Positions 5,945 through 50,866 of a stretch of 64,000 nt of DNA are shown one piece after another. Position 1 is the first letter of the stretch. Every line of letters begins with the position of its first letter. The notes under the pieces were generated by a model, which saw only the letters and a program-made list of their open reading frames with translations, had not been told where the DNA came from and ran no database searches. Made by a program: the position numbers and the translations under genes. Source of the DNA: Ectothiorhodospiraceae bacterium 2226 (GTDB lineage: Bacteria; Pseudomonadota; Gammaproteobacteria; GCA-013348725); the NCBI GenBank assembly GCA_013348725.1, contig CP054689.1:2662501-2726500 (forward strand), read 5' to 3'.

Positions 5945-6156
5945 TCCTCGGAATGCTCGAGGCGGCGCTGCAGATCCTGCTCGGTCAGCGTGCGTAGCTC
6001 GCGCTCGGCATCGATCAGACTGGTAGCCCCCATCACCGTCTTGCGCACGTAACCTTCCTCGTCGCGCGGGGCGAACAGGAGCACCAGATTGCCGTACGAC
6101 TCCTTACCCACGGCCACATCCCAGGCCTGGCCCGCATTGTCGATGAAGCTGCGCAT
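5935..6156 (-). CDS. Conserved hypothetical protein, 73 residues
   Basis: A small soluble protein beginning MRSFIDNAGQAWDVAVGKES and ending LQRRLEHSEEWD. It has a short beta-rich first half (WDVAV, GNLVLLFAP) and a helical, acidic C-terminal half. I do not recognise a named domain. The start at 6156 has a GGAGGTGCGAG ribosome site just upstream; longer readings are out of keeping with the composition. The stop overlaps the ychJ start by ten bases, which implies translational coupling in the same unit. The upstream 157 bases to the MFS gene hold no gene. Confidence 0.75.
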   Translation of the reverse strand: MRSFIDNAGQAWDVAVGKESYGNLVLLFAPRDEEGYVRKTVMGATSLIDAERELRTLTEQDLQRRLEHSEEWD

Positions 6157-6313
6157 CTCGCACCTCCGGCGGTTGCTGATAGGAAGTCTGGATAACGCCA
6201 TGCTGGTGTATCTGACCACGCGAACAAAAAGCGGGGTACTTCGCGCCTCCGAAGCGCTCCGAAGGTTTCCCTTAAGCTTATCGGTGCCGGCCGTCGGCTT
6301 CCAGGTGTCGCAA

Positions 6314-7564
6314 TCAGCGCTGCAGGTCGAGCTCGGGTTCGGCGTCCGCGCGTGGGTCCATCTGCACCGACGCGGGCGTTGTGCGGTGCAGCGGCACGAA
6401 GGGCTCGGGATGCTCCGGCGGCGCCTCGTGGCGGCGGCGCAGCTGGAGCAGCCCGAAGGCGGCCAACAGGGCCAGGATGACGGCCATACCCCCGAACAGC
6501 GCGGGGCCGCCGAGGCGGTCCATGGCCACGCCGCCAAGCAGGGGGCCGATGATGGCGCCGATGCCGTAGAGCAGCAGCAGCCCGCCGGTGGCCTCCAGGA
6601 TCTCCAGCGGCTCGAGGTGGTCGTTCACGCAGGCGACGCTGACGCTGTAGATGGAGAACACCATGCCGCCGTAGAAGAAGGCCAGCACCGCCATGGCCGC
6701 CGGCCAGTAGTGGGCGGCCAGCGCGATGGCGGCGGCCAGCAATGCGGCGAGCAGCGCCACCACCACCAGCACCACGCGCCGCTCGCCGTGGTCCGACAGG
6801 CGCCCGATGGGCCACTGCAGCAGTGCACCGCCGACGATGAGCGCGCTCATGAAGGCGGCGATCGCGACCTCCGTCAGTTCGGTCCGGTGGGCGAACACCG
6901 CACCCAAGGCCCAGAAGGCGCCGTTGGTCACCCCCGCGGCGAACGCGCCCAGCATACCGAGCGGCGACACCTCATACAGACGCTTGAGGCCGGTGCGGGC
7001 GCCACCTACGCGGTGCGGTTCGGCGCCGGTGGAGGTGGTGAGCGGCACCAGCGAGAGGGAGATCAGGACGGTGACCAGGGCGAACAGGGCGAAGTCCGCG
7101 ATGTCCGCCACCAGGATGAGGTACTGCCCCGCGGCCATGGCGACCAAGGTGACCGCCATGTAGGTCGCGAACACTTGGCCGCGTCGATGGTTGGGCGCGG
7201 CGGCGTTGAGCCAGCTCTCGATGATCATGTACAGCCCCACCAGGCAAATCCCGGTGACCACGCGCAGCCCCGCCCAGATCCAGGGATCGATGATGAGCGC
7301 ATGAGCCAGCACGCTGGCCGATGCAATCGAGGCCAAAGTAGCGAAGGCGCGCACGTGCCCGACGCGGCGGATCAAGCGGGGCGAGAGCCAGGTTCCGACG
7401 ATGTAGCCTACGAAGTAGGCCGACATAATGGCGCCGATCGTGGTGTCGCTGAAGCCGGCGAGCGCGCCGCGCAGACCGAGCAGGGTACTCAGTAAACCGA
7501 TGCCCGTGAGCAGAATGGCCGTAGCGAACAGCAGCGCGATCACGGACACGAGTAGACGTAGCAT
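6314..7564 (-). CDS. MFS transporter (YcaD-like)
   Basis: A 416-residue major facilitator with about 12 transmembrane helices. The loop 2-3 motif region reads SPRLIRRVGHVRAFATLAS and the equivalent loop 8-9 reads GRLSDHGERRVVL, both in the MFS pattern. The segment GLYMIIESWLN is typical of the YcaD/UPF0226-like group, whose substrates are unknown. A hydrophilic, proline-rich C-terminal tail of about 40 residues follows the last helix. Start chosen at 7564 because the hydrophobic first helix begins directly there (MLRLLVSVIALLFATAI). Monocistronic by spacing. Confidence 0.88.
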   Translation of the reverse strand: MLRLLVSVIALLFATAILLTGIGLLSTLLGLRGALAGFSDTTIGAIMSAYFVGYIVGTWLSPRLIRRVGHVRAFATLASIASASVLAHALIIDPWIWAGLRVVTGICLVGLYMIIESWLNAAAPNHRRGQVFATYMAVTLVAMAAGQYLILVADIADFALFALVTVLISLSLVPLTTSTGAEPHRVGGARTGLKRLYEVSPLGMLGAFAAGVTNGAFWALGAVFAHRTELTEVAIAAFMSALIVGGALLQWPIGRLSDHGERRVVLVVVALLAALLAAAIALAAHYWPAAMAVLAFFYGGMVFSIYSVSVACVNDHLEPLEILEATGGLLLLYGIGAIIGPLLGGVAMDRLGGPALFGGMAVILALLAAFGLLQLRRRHEAPPEHPEPFVPLHRTTPASVQMDPRADAEPELDLQR

Positions 7565-40396: not shown

Positions 40397-41482
40397 TCAT
40401 CGAGCTTCCCGCGGCCCACCGGCCGCGGCCAGATAGGCCGCCATCATCGCCTCTTCGTCGGCGGGCACCACCAGCACCGGGTGGCTGTCCGCCGCGTCGA
40501 GGCGTTCGGCGTGAGCCCCATTGCGCGCGTCGTCCAGTGCGAAGCCGAGAAACCCCAGGCGCGCGACGACCTGCGCCCGCACCGGCGCCGCGTGCTCGCC
40601 GATTCCGCCGGTGAACACCAGCCCGTCCAGCCCGCCGGCGTGCGCGGCCAGGCCGGCCAGCCCCGCGGCCACGCCGCGGCAAAAGTACTCCACCGCGAAC
40701 CGTGCCTCCGGCGCCGTGCTCTCGAGCAGGGTCTGCATGTCGCCCGACAGGCCGCCCGACAGCGCCTGCAGGCCGGAGCCGCGGTAGAGCGTCTCGCGCG
40801 CCGCCTCCAGTCCTGCCTCTTCCACCAGCGCCAGCACCACGCCGGGATCGAGGTCGCCGCTGCGCGTGCTCATCGGTATCCCGCCGAGCGGGGTGTACGC
40901 CATGGTGGTGTGGCTGGAGCGCAGGCCCTCGAGCAGGCACAGGCTGGCGCCGCTGCCCAGATGCGCCACCGCGATGCGTCCCTCCGCGGTGGCGCCCAAC
41001 AGCGCGGGCAGGCGGCGCGCGATGTGGGCGTAGTTGATGCCGTGAAAGCCGTAGCGCGGGTAAGCGCCCGGCACCGGGAGGCGGCGCGCGTGCGCAGGCA
41101 GGTTGTGGTGAAAGGCGGTGTCGTAGCAGGCCCACTGCGGCACGTCGGGGCCCAACAACTCTTCGCACAGCGCCACCCCGAGCAGGTTGCTGGGCTGGTG
41201 CAGCGGTGCCAGGCGGCATAGGTCCTGCAGGCGGCCGCGCTCCGCCTCATCCAGGCGCCGCACGGGCGCGGCGCAGTCGCCGCCGTGGGTGATGCGGTGC
41301 ACCACCGCCGCCGGGCGCGGGTCCGGCAGCGCCTCCAGCAGGGCGTGCAGCGCAGCGCGATGGTCGGGCGGACCGTCCCGGCCGATGCGTGCGTAGCGGT
41401 AGTCGCGCCGGTTGGCGCCGTCGAACAGCGCCGCCTTCAGGCTGGACGACCCGGCGTTGACGGCGAGCAGGGGGCGCATCAA
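40397..41482 (-). CDS. ackA: Acetate kinase
   Basis: A 361-residue acetokinase that transfers phosphate between acetyl phosphate and ADP to give acetate and ATP. It has the N-terminal LAVNAGSSSLKAAL, VVHRITHGGD, the active-site TAFHHNLPAHA with conserved His residues, HLGSGASLCLLEG and YTPLGGIPMSTRSGDLDPG, and the ATPase GGIGEHAAPVRAQV. At 361 residues it is shorter than the usual 395-400. It overlaps the stop of the phosphoketolase gene by four bases, so the two are coupled. Confidence 0.95.
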   Translation of the reverse strand: MMRPLLAVNAGSSSLKAALFDGANRRDYRYARIGRDGPPDHRAALHALLEALPDPRPAAVVHRITHGGDCAAPVRRLDEAERGRLQDLCRLAPLHQPSNLLGVALCEELLGPDVPQWACYDTAFHHNLPAHARRLPVPGAYPRYGFHGINYAHIARRLPALLGATAEGRIAVAHLGSGASLCLLEGLRSSHTTMAYTPLGGIPMSTRSGDLDPGVVLALVEEAGLEAARETLYRGSGLQALSGGLSGDMQTLLESTAPEARFAVEYFCRGVAAGLAGLAAHAGGLDGLVFTGGIGEHAAPVRAQVVARLGFLGFALDDARNGAHAERLDAADSHPVLVVPADEEAMMAAYLAAAGGPREAR

Positions 41483-43893
41483 ATGATGATCCCGTGCGGG
41501 CTGCGCCGTCCCTCCAGGGCATCGAGCTCGTCAGCCTCAAGCACCTCCTTCAAGTCGGCGCCGAGCGAGCGCGCCGCCGCGCGCACCACATGCGCCCAGG
41601 ACAGGCGATTCACGAACAGCATGCCGGCGGTGTTCAGCGTGCCGCCGTGGTTGGTGAAGCCCAGATGCACCGTGCGCCGGCCGGTGTCGAGCGGGCGCAG
41701 CACCCCGGCCATGACCTCGGGGCGGGTGTGGGAGGCGAACACGCGGTGTGGCACCGCGGCGGGGAACAGCCGCTCGCGCAGCTCGTCGGGGGCCTGGCAC
41801 TCGGCCTCGCGGCGCCCGCGCGGATCGCGAAAGCGGCCCGGCTCCACCAGGTAGTTGACCGCGCACGCCACGCCGCGCTCGCTCAGGCGCCGCGCCGCGC
41901 TCAGCACTTCATAGAACTGGAAGGCGCCGATCGCCGTGAGCAGCACCTGTGGCGCCGCGTCGCTGCACCAGTCCAGCCGCAAGCCGCCCTCGGCCAAGGC
42001 CTGCTCGGCGTGGGCGCGGTCGAAGTACTCGGGCACTGCGCTCTTAGGGACCACCAGCGTGAACACGCGCCCGTGGGTCGCGTAGCAGGCCGCGAGCGAG
42101 GCCGCCGCGGTGTTGTAGTCGGCCGGAAACAGCACGCGCGAGACGTCCGAGGGTTCGCCGAGCATGGCCTCGCACATCGCGGGGTCCTGGTGGGAGCGCT
42201 CGTTCTTGCCGTTTTCAAAGGTATTGGAGGTCAACACCAGCGGCACCGACAACCAGCCCGGCTGCTGGCCGCGGGCGAACATATGGTCGGCCCAAATGAC
42301 CTCCTGGCGCAGCGCACCGAGCATCTTGGGGCCGAAGGCCTCGTAGGTGACGGCGATGTTGATGCCGCCCTTGTTGCCGAGGCAGGCGCAGATCACCGCT
42401 TCTTCGTTGAGCGCGGTGATCACCTTGCCATGCAGTTCCTCGGCCAGGCCGTGCTCGCTCTCGGTGACGCGGTGGTTGAGCGCATCGAGCGTTGCGTTCA
42501 TGCGATTGGAGCGCATCTCGTCGGGGTTGCCGACGCGGGGGCGCAGGCGCGGGTTGGCACGCACGTAGGCCAGGAAGCCCTGATCGATGGCATCCATGGG
42601 ACTTTGGCGGTCGGGGTAGTCGGGATGGCGCCAGGGCAGCGCGACCTCCCGGTAGGGGAGCTCCGGCACGTAATCCACGCGCACGTCGCGGTTGGCAATG
42701 GGGTGGTCGCGCTCCGGCGGGCGGCGCGTGGTCTCGTGGTTGCGCAGCCGCGCGGCGGCGTCCTCGATCTGCGCGGCCGGCACGTACAGGCGCCGCGCGC
42801 TGTCATTGAAGTTGCGCGCCGCGCGCTCGTCCTCGGCAGGGTTGGTTTCCAGGGGCAGGCCGTGCGCCGCATTGGTGCCGGCGCCGTAGAAACCCGCGCC
42901 CTTGAGTGCAACGGCGACGCCGTAGGGCATGCGCACGGGGTAGTGCGCCTCGCCCGCGCGCACCGCCTCGGCACGCTCGGCCAGGCGCTGCTCGCCGTCG
43001 AGGATCATGCAGGCGAAGGCGGCCGGGTCGGTGCCGTCGAACACCACCGGCTCGAAGCTATAGAGCTCCAGGTGGCGCTGAAAGGCGGCCAGCCCCTCGC
43101 CCTGGGAGAGCGTCGCGCGCTGGTCGATGCGCCGGCCGTTGTTGATCATGATCGGGATCACGCTGCCGCTGTCCTCGGCGCGCCACCAACGCGGGGCCCA
43201 GTCCGAGCCGCGCTGCTCCTCCCAGGCCCCGTCGGAGAGGAAGGCGATCAGCTGTTCGCCCGGCAGCGGCATGTGCACGTACTGCAACTCCGCGAAGCCG
43301 AGATAGCCGCCCTCGATAATGCCGCCGGCGGTGTTGACGTTGACGTGGCTCCCGAGCGGCGAGTCCTGATTGCCGCACGCGTCCAGACGGTAGGCATAGA
43401 AGTCGTTCACGTAGCGCGTCAGGCGCTCCTCGTCGAGCTTGCCGCCTTCCCCGCGGTAGCGCTCCGCGTGCGCGTCCAGCATGTTGTCCAGCAGCAGGTT
43501 CACCGAATCGATGGCCGATACCGTATGACCTTGGCCCATGATCCAGCCCCGCGTCTGGCCGGAGAGGGCATTGGCCAGCATATAGCCGACGTAGGCCGGC
43601 ACCATGTTGAGCGAGCCGCCCGTGTGGCCCTGCGGATCGGGCTTGAAGTCCTGCGGCTCGAGCGGGCGCCCGTCCAGGTAAACCCGGCGGGCATAGGTCT
43701 CGTGCACCACCAGCCACATCGCGGCATTGGTCAGCATATCTGCGGCGATGAGCAGGTCCATCGGGTCGGCGCCGCCCGGACCGGGCGCGAGGCGCTCCAG
43801 AGTGCGTTTGACCCAGGCCTGGGTCTCGTCGCTGTGGCGTACGGCGCCGCGCCCGGCGGCCCAACTCTGAAAGCGTTGCTCTTGATCCTGCAT
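41479..43893 (-). CDS. xfp: Phosphoketolase (Xfp family)
   Basis: An 804-residue thiamine diphosphate enzyme splitting xylulose 5-phosphate (and usually fructose 6-phosphate) to acetyl phosphate plus glyceraldehyde 3-phosphate or erythrose 4-phosphate. Visible features are GPGHTV-like WIMGQGHTVSAID, the ThDP/Mg region near GDGAWEEQR-type LSDGAWEEQRGSDWAP, and HYPVRMPYGVAVALKGAGF. Length is right for the family. The next gene on the same strand is acetate kinase, converting its product acetyl phosphate to acetate with ATP formation. Confidence 0.95.
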   Translation of the reverse strand: MQDQEQRFQSWAAGRGAVRHSDETQAWVKRTLERLAPGPGGADPMDLLIAADMLTNAAMWLVVHETYARRVYLDGRPLEPQDFKPDPQGHTGGSLNMVPAYVGYMLANALSGQTRGWIMGQGHTVSAIDSVNLLLDNMLDAHAERYRGEGGKLDEERLTRYVNDFYAYRLDACGNQDSPLGSHVNVNTAGGIIEGGYLGFAELQYVHMPLPGEQLIAFLSDGAWEEQRGSDWAPRWWRAEDSGSVIPIMINNGRRIDQRATLSQGEGLAAFQRHLELYSFEPVVFDGTDPAAFACMILDGEQRLAERAEAVRAGEAHYPVRMPYGVAVALKGAGFYGAGTNAAHGLPLETNPAEDERAARNFNDSARRLYVPAAQIEDAAARLRNHETTRRPPERDHPIANRDVRVDYVPELPYREVALPWRHPDYPDRQSPMDAIDQGFLAYVRANPRLRPRVGNPDEMRSNRMNATLDALNHRVTESEHGLAEELHGKVITALNEEAVICACLGNKGGINIAVTYEAFGPKMLGALRQEVIWADHMFARGQQPGWLSVPLVLTSNTFENGKNERSHQDPAMCEAMLGEPSDVSRVLFPADYNTAAASLAACYATHGRVFTLVVPKSAVPEYFDRAHAEQALAEGGLRLDWCSDAAPQVLLTAIGAFQFYEVLSAARRLSERGVACAVNYLVEPGRFRDPRGRREAECQAPDELRERLFPAAVPHRVFASHTRPEVMAGVLRPLDTGRRTVHLGFTNHGGTLNTAGMLFVNRLSWAHVVRAAARSLGADLKEVLEADELDALEGRRSPHGIII

Positions 43894-44037: not shown

Positions 44038-44095
44038 AAGTTGGATACGCTCCTCAGGGATGTAGGCGGCGTTTACCGGAGGCAGGAGGATGGCC

Positions 44096-45445
44096 ATGGA
44101 TAGGAAATCTGGACGGCTCTCGTGGGACGGGCTCCGCGGACGTGTGCAAGATGCGGGCGCGCCCCCCGAGGCCGTGGATAGGCTGGTCGAACTGGAGGGA
44201 CGGCGCAAGTTTTTCGGCCAGGTGGGGCGCGGTGGCGCGACGCTGGCCATGCTCGGCTTCTTCGGCGCAGGGACCGAGGCGGCCATGCGCGGCCTGTTCG
44301 GGCGCGGGCTGATTCCTGTCGCCTGGGCGCAGGAGGTCACCGACGATCAGGCACGCCAGGCACTCCAGGAAACGGGCAAGGAGGGGATCACGGTCCACAA
44401 CGAGCGGCCGCTGAACGCCGAGTTCGGGGCGCACGAGCTGGCCGACGAGATCACGCCGATCAACCGACACTTCATCCGCAACAACGGGCTGATCCCCCAG
44501 CGGGCATTTCAACAGGACCTTCAGGGCTGGGCATTGGAGATCGACGGCGAGGTGAATCAGCCGCTCAAGCTCACCATGGAGCAGATCCGCAATATGCCGG
44601 CGCGCACCATCCAAGCCTCGCTCGAGTGCGGCGGCAATGGCCGCTCCTTGTTCGATCCACCGGTGCGCGGCAACCAGTGGCGCCAGGGGGCGATCGGTTG
44701 TTCGGAATGGACCGGGGTCTCGCTCGGCGACGTGCTGCGCGAGGCGGGGTTGCGCGACTCGGCGGTCTACACGGGACATTACGGCGAGGATCCACCGCTG
44801 GCGGGTGACGAGGTGCCGATCTCGCGGGGCGTGCCCATCGACAAGGCGATGGAGGAACATACCCTGCTTGCGTACCAGATGAACGGGGAAGATCTGCCGG
44901 CGGTGCACGGCTTCCCACTACGGATCGTGGTGCCGGGTTGGGTCGGCAGTTGCTCGCAGAAGTGGCTGACGCGCATCTGGGTGCGCGATCAGGAGCACGA
45001 TGGGCCCAAGATGCTGGGTTACTCGTATCGTATGCCCGCGTATCCGGTTGCCCCGGGCGAAGACGTGCCCGAGGAGGACATGGAGGTCGCCAAGGACTGG
45101 CCGATCAAGTCGATGATCACCGGACCCGCCGAGGGATCGGAGCATGCCGCCGGCGCGGTGACCGTCACCGGGCACGCCTGGGCGGGCGAGCACGAGGTGG
45201 AGCGGGTGGAGGTATCCATCGACTTCGGCAACACCTGGACCGAGGCGGAGCTTCGGGATCCGGCCAACAAGTACGCATGGCAGCAGTTCGAGGCCGAGGT
45301 CGAGCTGCCGGGCCGGGGCTATTACGAGATCTGGGCGCGCGCCTTCGACGACGAGGGGAACGGCCAGCCCTTCCGGCAGCCGTGGAACCCGCGCGGCTAC
45401 ATGGGCAACGTGGTGCATCGCGTGCCGGTACGGGTCACGGCATAA
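44096..45445 (+). CDS. sorA: Molybdenum sulfite dehydrogenase (SorA/SoxC-like)
   Basis: A 449-residue sulfite oxidase-family enzyme. A twin-arginine leader (RRKFFGQVG at 36-44, cleavage likely near VAWA-Q at 78) sends it to the periplasm folded with its cofactor. The molybdopterin domain shows RNNGLIPQ and the Mo-ligand Cys178 in SLECGGNGR, plus IVVPGWVGSCSQKWLTRI; the C-terminal dimerisation (Mo-co_dimer) domain starts near MITGPAEGSEH. It oxidises sulfite, or a sulfane substrate in the SoxC branch, passing electrons to cytochrome c. Start at 44096 fits AGGAGG. The cytochrome gene follows after 153 bases. Confidence 0.9.
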   Translation: MDRKSGRLSWDGLRGRVQDAGAPPEAVDRLVELEGRRKFFGQVGRGGATLAMLGFFGAGTEAAMRGLFGRGLIPVAWAQEVTDDQARQALQETGKEGITVHNERPLNAEFGAHELADEITPINRHFIRNNGLIPQRAFQQDLQGWALEIDGEVNQPLKLTMEQIRNMPARTIQASLECGGNGRSLFDPPVRGNQWRQGAIGCSEWTGVSLGDVLREAGLRDSAVYTGHYGEDPPLAGDEVPISRGVPIDKAMEEHTLLAYQMNGEDLPAVHGFPLRIVVPGWVGSCSQKWLTRIWVRDQEHDGPKMLGYSYRMPAYPVAPGEDVPEEDMEVAKDWPIKSMITGPAEGSEHAAGAVTVTGHAWAGEHEVERVEVSIDFGNTWTEAELRDPANKYAWQQFEAEVELPGRGYYEIWARAFDDEGNGQPFRQPWNPRGYMGNVVHRVPVRVTA

Positions 45446-47668: not shown

Positions 47669-48487
47669 ATGTGGTGGACCTGGAAGGCCTGGTGGCGCCG
47701 ACGCGTCCTGAAGCGCGGATTGGTGCCGGTCGCCTCGTGGCGTGCGGCTGTCGCGGAGCTGCCATTGCTGGCGCGCTACACGCCGAGCGAGCAGCACCGC
47801 CTACGAGAACTCGCGACGCTGTTCTTGCACGAGAAGGTGATCGTCGGTGCGGGCGATTTGCAGCTGGAGGAGGCGATGCAGGTACGCATCGCGGCCCTGG
47901 CCTGTCTGCCGGTGCTGAACCTGGACCTCGACTACCTGCGCGGCTGGGTGGAGATCATCGTCTATCCCGGGCAGTTCACGCCCGAGCACGAGTACACGGA
48001 TGAAGCGGGCGTCGTGCACGTGACGCATCATCCCCTCGCCGGCGAGGCGTGGCTACAGGGTCCGCTGGTATTGTCCTGGGAGGACATCCTCGCCAGCGGC
48101 CGTGGCGACGGTTTCAACGTGGTCATCCACGAGCTGGCGCACAAGCTCGACATGCTCGATGGTGAGGCCAACGGCTTCCCGCCGCTGCATGAGGGCATGG
48201 CGGGGGAGGCCTGGACGCAGGCCTTCGCGGAGGCCTTCGCCGACATGCGGCGCCGTGACGAAGGCGGCGAGGACACCGTGCTGGATCCGTACGCGGCGGA
48301 GGATCCGGCGGAGTTCTTCGCCGTGATGAGCGAGGCGTTCTTCGAGACGCCGCACCTCTTGGCGCAGACGTATCCCGCCGTCTACGAGCAGTTACGCGTC
48401 TTTTATCGACAAGATCCGGACGCAGGGGGAACGATCAGCCATGAAGATGAGTACCGACACGCTGTCCGCCACGGCGCCCGCGGTTGA
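47669..48487 (+). CDS. mtfA: MtfA-like zinc metallopeptidase (M90)
   Basis: A 272-residue cytosolic peptidase of the M90/MtfA family. The active site is VIHELAHKLDMLDG with His154, Glu155 and His158; the third zinc ligand is one of the glutamates in AEFFAVMSEAFFE (about 214-226). The N-terminal region with LLARYTPSEQHRLRELATLFLHEK and the CLPVLNLDLDYL strand is typical. In E. coli MtfA regulates the glucose PTS via Mlc. Start at 47669 begins MWWTWKAWWRRR; a TTG seven codons earlier is possible. The last 47 bases overlap the following proton-channel gene, so coupling is strong. Confidence 0.9.
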   Translation: MWWTWKAWWRRRVLKRGLVPVASWRAAVAELPLLARYTPSEQHRLRELATLFLHEKVIVGAGDLQLEEAMQVRIAALACLPVLNLDLDYLRGWVEIIVYPGQFTPEHEYTDEAGVVHVTHHPLAGEAWLQGPLVLSWEDILASGRGDGFNVVIHELAHKLDMLDGEANGFPPLHEGMAGEAWTQAFAEAFADMRRRDEGGEDTVLDPYAAEDPAEFFAVMSEAFFETPHLLAQTYPAVYEQLRVFYRQDPDAGGTISHEDEYRHAVRHGARG

Positions 48488-49457
48488 GGGGCGCCCGCCC
48501 ACCGCGGATCTTACCCCGCCGTATCTCTACCGCATGCCCTTTCGCCGGCAGTATAGCCGCCACGTCTTGTTCCAGATGTTCGTGCTGGGCGCCCTCGCGG
48601 CGGGGCTCCTGCTCTGGAACTTCGACTTCCTGCGCAACGTCTACCTCGAGAATCAGCTCACCAACGTCGGCTGGTTGATCAACGGCGGCATTGTGGCGCT
48701 GTTCCTGCTGGGCCTGGCGCGCATCGTCGCGCTGCTGCGCTTCTACCAGCGCGAGGAACAGGCGCTGGAACAGTTCGTGGAGGATGCCGAGTCCGGCATG
48801 CAGGATCCGGCCGATCGGGCGCCGGCCTCGCTGATCACCTCGCGTTTCGATGCCATGCGTGCCCTGCACGAAGCGTCCGTGCCCACCGACCAGGGGGCGC
48901 TGGCTGCGACCCTCACGGCCAGCGAGAGCACCCGGGCGAGCGTGCCGAAGTTCATCGCCAATATCCTCATCCTCACCGGCGTGTTCGGGACCATCGTGGC
49001 GCTGTCCATGGCACTGATCGGCGCCTCCAACCTGATCGGCGCGGACGCCGCCGATGTGACCGGCATGGGCATGGTGGTGCATGGCATGTCCACCGCCTTG
49101 TCCACGACCATGACCGCGATCCTCTGTTATCTGTTCCTCGGCTACTTCTATCTGCGCCTCACCGACGTGCAGACCAACCTGGTCGCGGGTATCGAGCACG
49201 TCACCACCCACTACCTCGTGCCACGCTTCCACGTCACCGAAAAGGGCGTGACGCACCAGTTGGCCGGCTTGATCCGCTCGCTGCAGAGCGTGGTCGGACA
49301 GATCGCCCAGGAGCGCGCCTCGCTGCTCTCGGCGGAGGAGCGCCTGTTTGGTGCCGTGACCGAAGAGCGTTCCCGTCAGGAGCGGCTCGCCCAGGGCCTG
49401 GAGGAGATACAGGACCTGCTGCGCGAGGGCTTCCGCTTGCCGGACCAACGCCCATGA
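48441..49457 (+). CDS. MotA/TolQ/ExbB-family proton channel protein
   Basis: A 338-residue inner-membrane protein with four transmembrane helices (about 42-60, 78-99, 171-193 and 216-237). The helix 3-4 core, FIANILILTGVFGTIVALSM then GMSTALSTTMTAILCYLF, has the invariant G-x-F/L-G-T-V and T-T pattern of the MotA/TolQ/ExbB proton channels. A cytosolic loop of about 70 residues lies between helices 2 and 3, and a long helical C-terminus (about 240-330) is coiled-coil-like. It starts inside mtfA and ends four bases into its partner gene. Not flagellar: no flagellar gene is nearby. Confidence 0.9.
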   Translation: MKMSTDTLSATAPAVEGRPPTADLTPPYLYRMPFRRQYSRHVLFQMFVLGALAAGLLLWNFDFLRNVYLENQLTNVGWLINGGIVALFLLGLARIVALLRFYQREEQALEQFVEDAESGMQDPADRAPASLITSRFDAMRALHEASVPTDQGALAATLTASESTRASVPKFIANILILTGVFGTIVALSMALIGASNLIGADAADVTGMGMVVHGMSTALSTTMTAILCYLFLGYFYLRLTDVQTNLVAGIEHVTTHYLVPRFHVTEKGVTHQLAGLIRSLQSVVGQIAQERASLLSAEERLFGAVTEERSRQERLAQGLEEIQDLLREGFRLPDQRP

Positions 49458-50413
49458 GCGGTTTCGGCTCCATGGACCTGCGCCTCAACCGCCCCGGCGG
49501 CCAGAACGACGAGAGCTTCTGGCCCTCGTTCACCGACATCATGACCGTGGTGGTGCTGATCTTCGTGCTCGCCATGGTGGTGCTGCTTCTGAAGAACATG
49601 GACCTGGTCGACCGCCTGCGCGCTACCGTGGAGGCCGAACGGGCCGCGGCCGAGTTGGCGCGGGCCACGGCCGCGGAGAAGGATTCGCTGGCCGGTCTCC
49701 TGGACGAACAGGCAGAGGAGGCCGCGCATTTGCGGCTGCAGTTGATGCGCACGCAGGCGCAGCTGCAAACCGCGCGCGAGGAGACGCGCGCGCGTGAGGA
49801 CGAGCTCGCGACGCGTGTCGCCGAGCTCGCGACGGCGCGCGGCGAGGCGGAGCAGTTGCGCCACCAGGTGCGCGGCCTGGAGCGGGGCCTGACCGCCACC
49901 GCGCAGGCCTTCGAAACGACCGCGCAGGAATTGGCGCAGCTACGCAGCGCGCACGGCGCCCTGGAGGGCCGCTTTCAAAGCGCGCGCGAGCAGCTGGCCG
50001 CGCTGAGCAGCGCCGGGGAGCGTCAGGCCGCCGAGTTGCGGGCGAGCCGCGCCGAGGCGGAGCAGGCGGCGCGCCGGTTGGCCGCCATGCAGGGCGAGTA
50101 TGACGAGCTGCGGGTGCGCTATGACCGGCTGGTGCGACCCGCCCGCACCGCGCGCGGCAAAGAGGTGGTGCAGGTGCGCTACGAGAAGCGCAACGGCGAG
50201 CCCCGCATACAGTTGCGCGAGCCTACCGCGGGGGCATTCCGACGGGTGGATGACGGCGAGCTGCACGCCACGCTGGCAGCGCTCAGCGAGCGCTATCCGG
50301 AGACCTTGTACGTGCGCGTGATTTTTCCCGAGGACAGTGGTCTATCTTATAACGAGGCGTGGCAGTTCACGAACGAGTTACTCACACGCTACGACTACTA
50401 CCACCGCCAATAG
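49454..50413 (+). CDS. MotB/ExbD-like partner with a long coiled coil
   Basis: A 319-residue protein with one transmembrane helix (about 27-47) carrying the stator proton-carrying aspartate Asp28 in FWPSFTDIMTVVVLIF, the MotB/ExbD/ZorB pattern. Residues about 50-235 are a long Ala/Glu/Arg heptad coiled coil in the periplasm. The last 80 residues form a small globular domain (from VVQVRYEKRNGEPRIQL to YYHRQ) with LYVRVIFPEDSGLSYNEAWQ, resembling the end of ExbD/TolR rather than an OmpA domain; no peptidoglycan-binding motif was seen. It is translationally coupled to the channel gene by a four-base overlap. Confidence 0.88.
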   Translation: MSGFGSMDLRLNRPGGQNDESFWPSFTDIMTVVVLIFVLAMVVLLLKNMDLVDRLRATVEAERAAAELARATAAEKDSLAGLLDEQAEEAAHLRLQLMRTQAQLQTAREETRAREDELATRVAELATARGEAEQLRHQVRGLERGLTATAQAFETTAQELAQLRSAHGALEGRFQSAREQLAALSSAGERQAAELRASRAEAEQAARRLAAMQGEYDELRVRYDRLVRPARTARGKEVVQVRYEKRNGEPRIQLREPTAGAFRRVDDGELHATLAALSERYPETLYVRVIFPEDSGLSYNEAWQFTNELLTRYDYYHRQ

Positions 50414-50443: not shown

Positions 50444-50866
50444 ATGACGGAGACGGAGCGGTACGGGGAAGATGAAAAGAAGAACGGCTCGGACCGTGTT
50501 CGTCTGGACAAGTGGTTATGGGCCGCACGATTCTATAAGACCCGCGCGGTCGCCGCCGAGGCGGTGCACGGCGGGCATGTGCAGGTGAACGGGACGCGCG
50601 CCAAGCCCTCGCGCACACTGCAGTTGGGCGACCAGGTCAGCCTGCGCAAGGGCCCGTACGAGTATGTGGTGCACGTATGCGGCCTGTCGGGCCGGCGTGG
50701 TCCGGCGAGCCTCGTCGGGCAGCTGTATGAAGAGACGCCCGAGAGTCGTCAAGCGCGTGAGCAGGTCTCGCGCGAGCGGCGCGAGAGCGGCACGGGTGGC
50801 CCGGTTCAGCGGCCCGACAAGCGCGGTCGCCGCCAGATCGTACGCTTCATGCGCCGTCAGGGCTGA
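50444..50866 (+). CDS. hslR: S4-domain RNA-binding heat-shock protein Hsp15
   Basis: A 140-residue Hsp15. The S4 domain is RLDKWLWAARFYKTRAVAAEAV followed by GGHVQVNG and LQLGDQVSLRKG, matching HslR, which binds stalled 50S subunits carrying nascent chains and rescues them. The C-terminal basic tail (RPDKRGRRQIVRFMRRQG) is typical. It begins 30 bases after the coiled-coil gene on the same strand and may share its transcript; a Nudix gene follows four bases after its stop. Confidence 0.92.
   Translation: MTETERYGEDEKKNGSDRVRLDKWLWAARFYKTRAVAAEAVHGGHVQVNGTRAKPSRTLQLGDQVSLRKGPYEYVVHVCGLSGRRGPASLVGQLYEETPESRQAREQVSRERRESGTGGPVQRPDKRGRRQIVRFMRRQG

Follow-up and report, generated by a model that had tools for sequence, protein, structure and literature searches.

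The locus considered here raises the question of whether three closely packed genes, which encode a zinc peptidase and the two subunits of a stator-like membrane channel, constitute a single envelope system. The original prediction, made on the window (the whole stretch of DNA analysed, 64,000 nucleotides in length), proposed that they do and that the channel pair possibly signals the periplasmic state to a cytosolic peptidase. All three open reading frames are present in this genome, which comprises 2.96 Mb in a single contig, and the features on which the argument depends are the following.

47669..48487, + strand: gene for an MtfA-type M90 zinc peptidase (PF06167, E = 4e-89); not in the conserved unit
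48441..49457, + strand: predicted channel subunit A, MotA/TolQ/ExbB-like (PF01618 at 18.2 bits, hydropathy, structure model, Foldseek)
48534, + strand: alternative start ATG of A; A is conserved from about residue 30 on
49454..50413, + strand: predicted axle subunit B (ZorB-like N-terminus, structure model, W23/P24/D28 in 91/91 homologues)
49517..49546, + strand: FWPSFTDIMT motif, residues 22-31 of B, with the stator-type Asp28 (read from the sequence; W, P and D invariant in 91 homologues)
50138..50410, + strand: C-terminal domain of B, residues 229-319 approximately (pLDDT mostly 75-90; conserved PAR...YDYY)
50444..50866, + strand: S4-domain (Hsp15-like) gene, 30 bases after B (PF01479, E = 3e-14)

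The peptidase, with 272 amino acids from the ATG at 47669, carries the predicted HELAH motif and matches the Peptidase_M90 profile end to end (profile positions 1-243). E. coli MtfA is an M90 peptidase that binds Mlc; the upstream gene resembles it in being a full-length M90 member, scores 210.7 bits against the NCBIfam MtfA equivalog model (E. coli MtfA), short of its cut-off of 400, and belongs to a gene family separate from A and B, with a distribution of its own. As for the overlaps that had suggested tight coupling, the 4 bases shared by A and B hold, and the 47 bases shared by mtfA and A are present as annotated but depend on the choice of the A start codon. With the ATG at 48534 as the real start codon, a gap of 46 bases would replace the overlap, and in 43 of 72 A homologues no start is possible upstream of the position that corresponds to residue 26; the longer form, in turn, is favoured by an AGGGGG that precedes 48441. 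The run of genes on the same strand continues past B with the S4-domain gene, a NUDIX gene and a thioredoxin gene, so that mtfA, A and B are not an isolated unit, and a promoter scan found nothing. Elsewhere in the window, the sequence reads as a phosphoketolase-like gene next to genes for a SoxC-like sulfite dehydrogenase and a small c-type cytochrome (41479-43893, - strand, and 44090-45445, + strand).

The association of the peptidase with the channel was examined in a sample of 370 genomes of the class searched with A, 54 of which carry a clear orthologue (E below 1e-42), set apart by a wide gap from weak paralogues. In the 75 class loci inspected (74 besides the present one, each covering at most 5-6 kb to either side of A and less at contig ends), A and B are adjacent in every case, and mtfA adjoins them only in the present genome. 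Adjacency of the peptidase and the channel, whose rarity the original prediction had named beforehand as telling against it, is therefore rare indeed. Moreover, of the 157 genomes with MtfA, 27 are among the 54 that have A and 130 among the 316 that do not (odds ratio 1.43, Fisher p = 0.24), in a test that ignores phylogeny and would consequently favour a false positive rather than the negative found here. The other 27 genomes with A have the pair without any mtfA; where both occur and their places are listed, they either do not share a contig or are separated by 53 kb or more, and neither A nor B appeared in 20 sampled mtfA neighbourhoods. In one of these 20 (L125:4956-7200), mtfA runs divergently from another TolQ-like gene that has a transmembrane partner; this case was treated as a coincidence. 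On the best reading, MtfA is a chance neighbour in the present genome only, perhaps co-transcribed with the pair: mtfA shares its strand and, with either an overlap or a short gap, probably its transcript here. A coupled peptidase-channel system is consequently extremely unlikely; the model is largely refuted for the family, and the link is rejected on adjacency, co-occurrence and the mtfA neighbourhoods alike. A close overlap of genes in a single genome was no guide to a functional link here, a negative result of some use in itself.

What remains is an unnamed chromosomal family of two stator-like genes, found in numerous proteobacteria from the environment, in Gammaproteobacteria and in at least one other class of the phylum, where it occurs in two families (f196 and f216) and the A-B order is kept in most of 19 loci. 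The commonest junction is a 4-base ATGA overlap (35/75 class loci). No fixed third gene was seen beside the pair in the 75 class loci or the 19 from the other class, and the S4-domain gene accompanies it in no other of the 75. The neighbours, for the most part unrelated housekeeping genes, change from lineage to lineage: as read from their sequences, they are genes for glycerate kinase and the lipoprotein Slp in the Thiodiazotropha-type symbionts, for histidine synthesis in further lineages and, in the other class, dnaB, obg-proBA or tsaD. A search with A through 72,556 plasmids and 50,697 phages gave no match, and a mobile defence island is rejected on that ground. B may be dispensable in some lineages, since in one locus (L163) no B was found downstream of A and in another (L162) B is devoid of its C-terminal domain, and in both A retains its terminal GFRL motif. 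Two loci (L123:4938-6782 and L124, with B at 5966-6751) from other genomes of the class contain a second, related and uncharacterised stator-like pair, with an A of about 347 amino acids and a B of about 260 amino acids with HESFSDVALLMLATF, and this type of pair accounts for some, at least, of the weak paralogue matches to A.

Subunit A has 338 amino acids from the start at 48441 and four hydropathy peaks (41-59, 83-101, 175-193 and 218-238), with an apparent layout of four transmembrane helices, a condensed cytosolic loop and a cytosolic tail of about 90 residues whose helix ends in GFRL. The four-helix MotA/TolQ/ExbB-type channel of the original prediction is upheld by these peaks and by Foldseek, which with a single-chain model (mean pLDDT 69.5, a moderate confidence) retrieved ExbB, TolQ, MotA and ZorA chains at a probability near 1 and E values of only 0.01-0.25, but its MotA_ExbB score lies under the curated Pfam cut-off of 22.9. 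This shortfall reflects a detection threshold rather than a structural feature, and lowers the certainty of superfamily membership without excluding it. In addition, profile comparison with TolQ-type sequences was weak and a PDB sequence search with A returned coiled-coil noise only. A is best described as a distant branch of the MotA/TolQ/ExbB superfamily. In a conservation sample of 93 A and 91 B sequences, Gly180, Gly183, Thr184, Ala219 and Thr223 of A are invariant, Thr184 and Thr223 (93/93 each) being the conserved threonines of the two pore helices, and the same is true of Gly330, Phe331 and Arg332 in the cytosolic GFRL motif.

Subunit B, of 319 amino acids, is composed of a short N-terminus, one transmembrane helix (a single hydropathy peak at 28-46), a long periplasmic coiled coil and a C-terminal alpha/beta domain that is conserved and terminates in YDYY. 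Its one helix and stator aspartate are as predicted: Trp23, Pro24 and Asp28 are unchanged in all homologues sampled, and the transmembrane aspartate of B-type subunits is essential in the 5:2 stator superfamily. The N-terminal part matches ZorB models (E = 2e-8) and also ZorB structures. The model of B, likewise a single chain, shows with good confidence one helix from 26 to 226, followed by strands and helices at 237-312. The coiled coil, about 180 residues, would measure about 270 A in its periplasmic part if straight at 1.5 A per residue, and could hence be long enough to span the periplasm. What lies between the transmembrane helix and the C-terminal domain differs widely in length (146-552 residues, median 181), while both ends are conserved; in four loci (L105, L106, L112 and L113) it has 363-552 residues and is two to three times as long as usual. 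The C-terminal domain had no significant Pfam match in six diverse members and no likeness to E. coli TolR or Pal by hhalign, which is a weak test with single sequences and was uninformative against TolR, TolQ and Pal, and Foldseek with the B model gave weak, scattered matches only (E above 0.03). Its alpha/beta order might still allow a distant kinship with the periplasmic domain of ExbD/TolR.

Taken together, it seems rather probable that A and B are a self-contained, non-flagellar 5:2 ion-driven motor whose axle, B, is also its envelope arm, with MtfA as a chance neighbour. The observations that support this reading are the constant pairing, the conservation, the topology, the key residues and the absence of a fixed partner; the stoichiometry, rotation, reach and targets are what we infer. 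By analogy with the superfamily (PMC12505986, PMC9389320), a pentamer of A would ring a dimer of B. Ions would pass between Asp28 of B and Thr184/Thr223 of A, as the family suggests, and this transfer could drive a relative rotation of the A ring and the B axle. The axle would extend as a coiled coil and place its C-terminal domain at a target in the cell wall or at the outer membrane; since B would carry this domain across the periplasm itself, a separate TolA/TonB-like arm would not be needed. At the other end, on the cytosolic face, GFRL is a probable docking site, to which either an unlinked partner or the ring could bind. It is a more tentative proposal, and one that we hold with some doubt, that the pair represents a class of two-component envelope motor not described before: B, as an axle that either rotates or is anchored, would span the periplasm and end in a new binding domain, and the invariant GFRL of A would provide the link to the cytosol. 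If the motor reading is true, there would be a branch of ion-driven 5:2 motors that needs two genes only, with an axle that serves as its own long arm and presents an unclassified domain at the wall or outer membrane. The sharply defined invariant residues (Asp28 and YDYY in B; Thr184, Thr223 and GFRL in A) make mutant tests straightforward.

A different function would follow if the pair were a TolQR/ExbBD-like energiser of an unlinked TonB/TolA-like or outer-membrane lipoprotein partner. Slp lipoproteins were considered for this role since many loci of the Thiodiazotropha type have one or two slp genes after A-B, and the family lies near A-B in 19 loci. Across the 370 genomes, however, slp and the pair are not associated (15/54 against 85/316, p = 0.87), and in the present genome a slp pair lies about 300 kb from A-B, which makes this alternative quite improbable; Slp as a general partner is rejected by co-occurrence despite the many symbiont loci. 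Tandem Slp-type outer-membrane lipoprotein genes follow A-B at L037:8195-9300, L046:7959-9075 and L058:8015-9090, all from Thiodiazotropha-type symbionts, and in L040 and L042 an HDOD-like gene lies in between. Moreover, tolQ-tolR is present elsewhere in the genome, 3.2 kb before pal, as is exbB-exbD with a TonB-like gene, so that A-B is not a substitute for a missing TolQR or ExbBD; a third gene of the exbB type is accompanied by two that resemble exbD.

The alternative that fares best, though still unlikely, is a Zorya-like sensor, in which B would sense a disturbance of the wall or envelope, ion flow would turn the A tail and GFRL would recruit an unlinked cytosolic effector. It is consistent with a B N-terminus closest to ZorB, with the four transmembrane helices and cytosolic tail of A, and with the invariance of GFRL; Zorya itself depends on wall binding by ZorB, on the tail of ZorA and on ion flow together (PMC11890865). 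Against it, the OmpA-type wall-binding domain (PF00691) was not found in B, and the A tail has about 90 residues only. Furthermore, the neighbours of A-B here (M90, S4, NUDIX and thioredoxin genes) include no zorC/D, zorE or zorF/G, and the pair is chromosomal, with the plasmid and phage searches negative. The motor reading is preferred; the machine may either exert force on the envelope or, as has been suggested for Zorya (PMC11890865), inform the cytosol of the state of the envelope.

As regards known systems, the pair is stator-type and non-flagellar, and none of the fli, tol, ton or zor partners adjoins it, as the original prediction had it; flagellar MotAB is rejected on both the missing OmpA-like domain of B and the missing flagellar gene context. 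In the GldLM motor of type 9 secretion, the axle protein itself spans the periplasm, as is proposed for B, but no counterpart of the several D domains of GldM or of its fixed set of partners was seen with A-B. Tol-Pal TolQR is alike in stator chemistry and fold, and differs in its partners: tolA, tolB, pal and tonB are all absent from the present A-B locus, the tolQ-tolR of the genome lies elsewhere, and no partner is fixed in the other loci. ExbB and TolQ have three transmembrane helices whereas A has four, and B is set apart from TolR and ExbD by the great length of its coiled coil and by the sequence of its C-terminal domain. Zorya ZorAB (PMC11890865) shares the W-S-F-T/S-D transmembrane segment of its ZorB with B, and a ring protein with a cytosolic tail with A, but the pair differs in the short A tail and in its absence from the mobile elements searched, and Zorya membership is rejected because B is without the OmpA-type domain and zor partner genes are missing. 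A further close parallel is offered by the generic ion transporters, comprising ExbBD, TolQR, AglRS and uncharacterised pairs (mBio 2025, PMC12505986), which have adjacent A and B genes, a stator aspartate in B, a conserved threonine in TM3/TM4 of A, a condensed cytosolic loop and no flagellar features, as here. According to two recent surveys (PMC12505986, PMC12204202), many ion-driven motors of the 5:2 type remain uncharacterised, and the A-B family may already stand, unlabelled, among their generic ion transporters.
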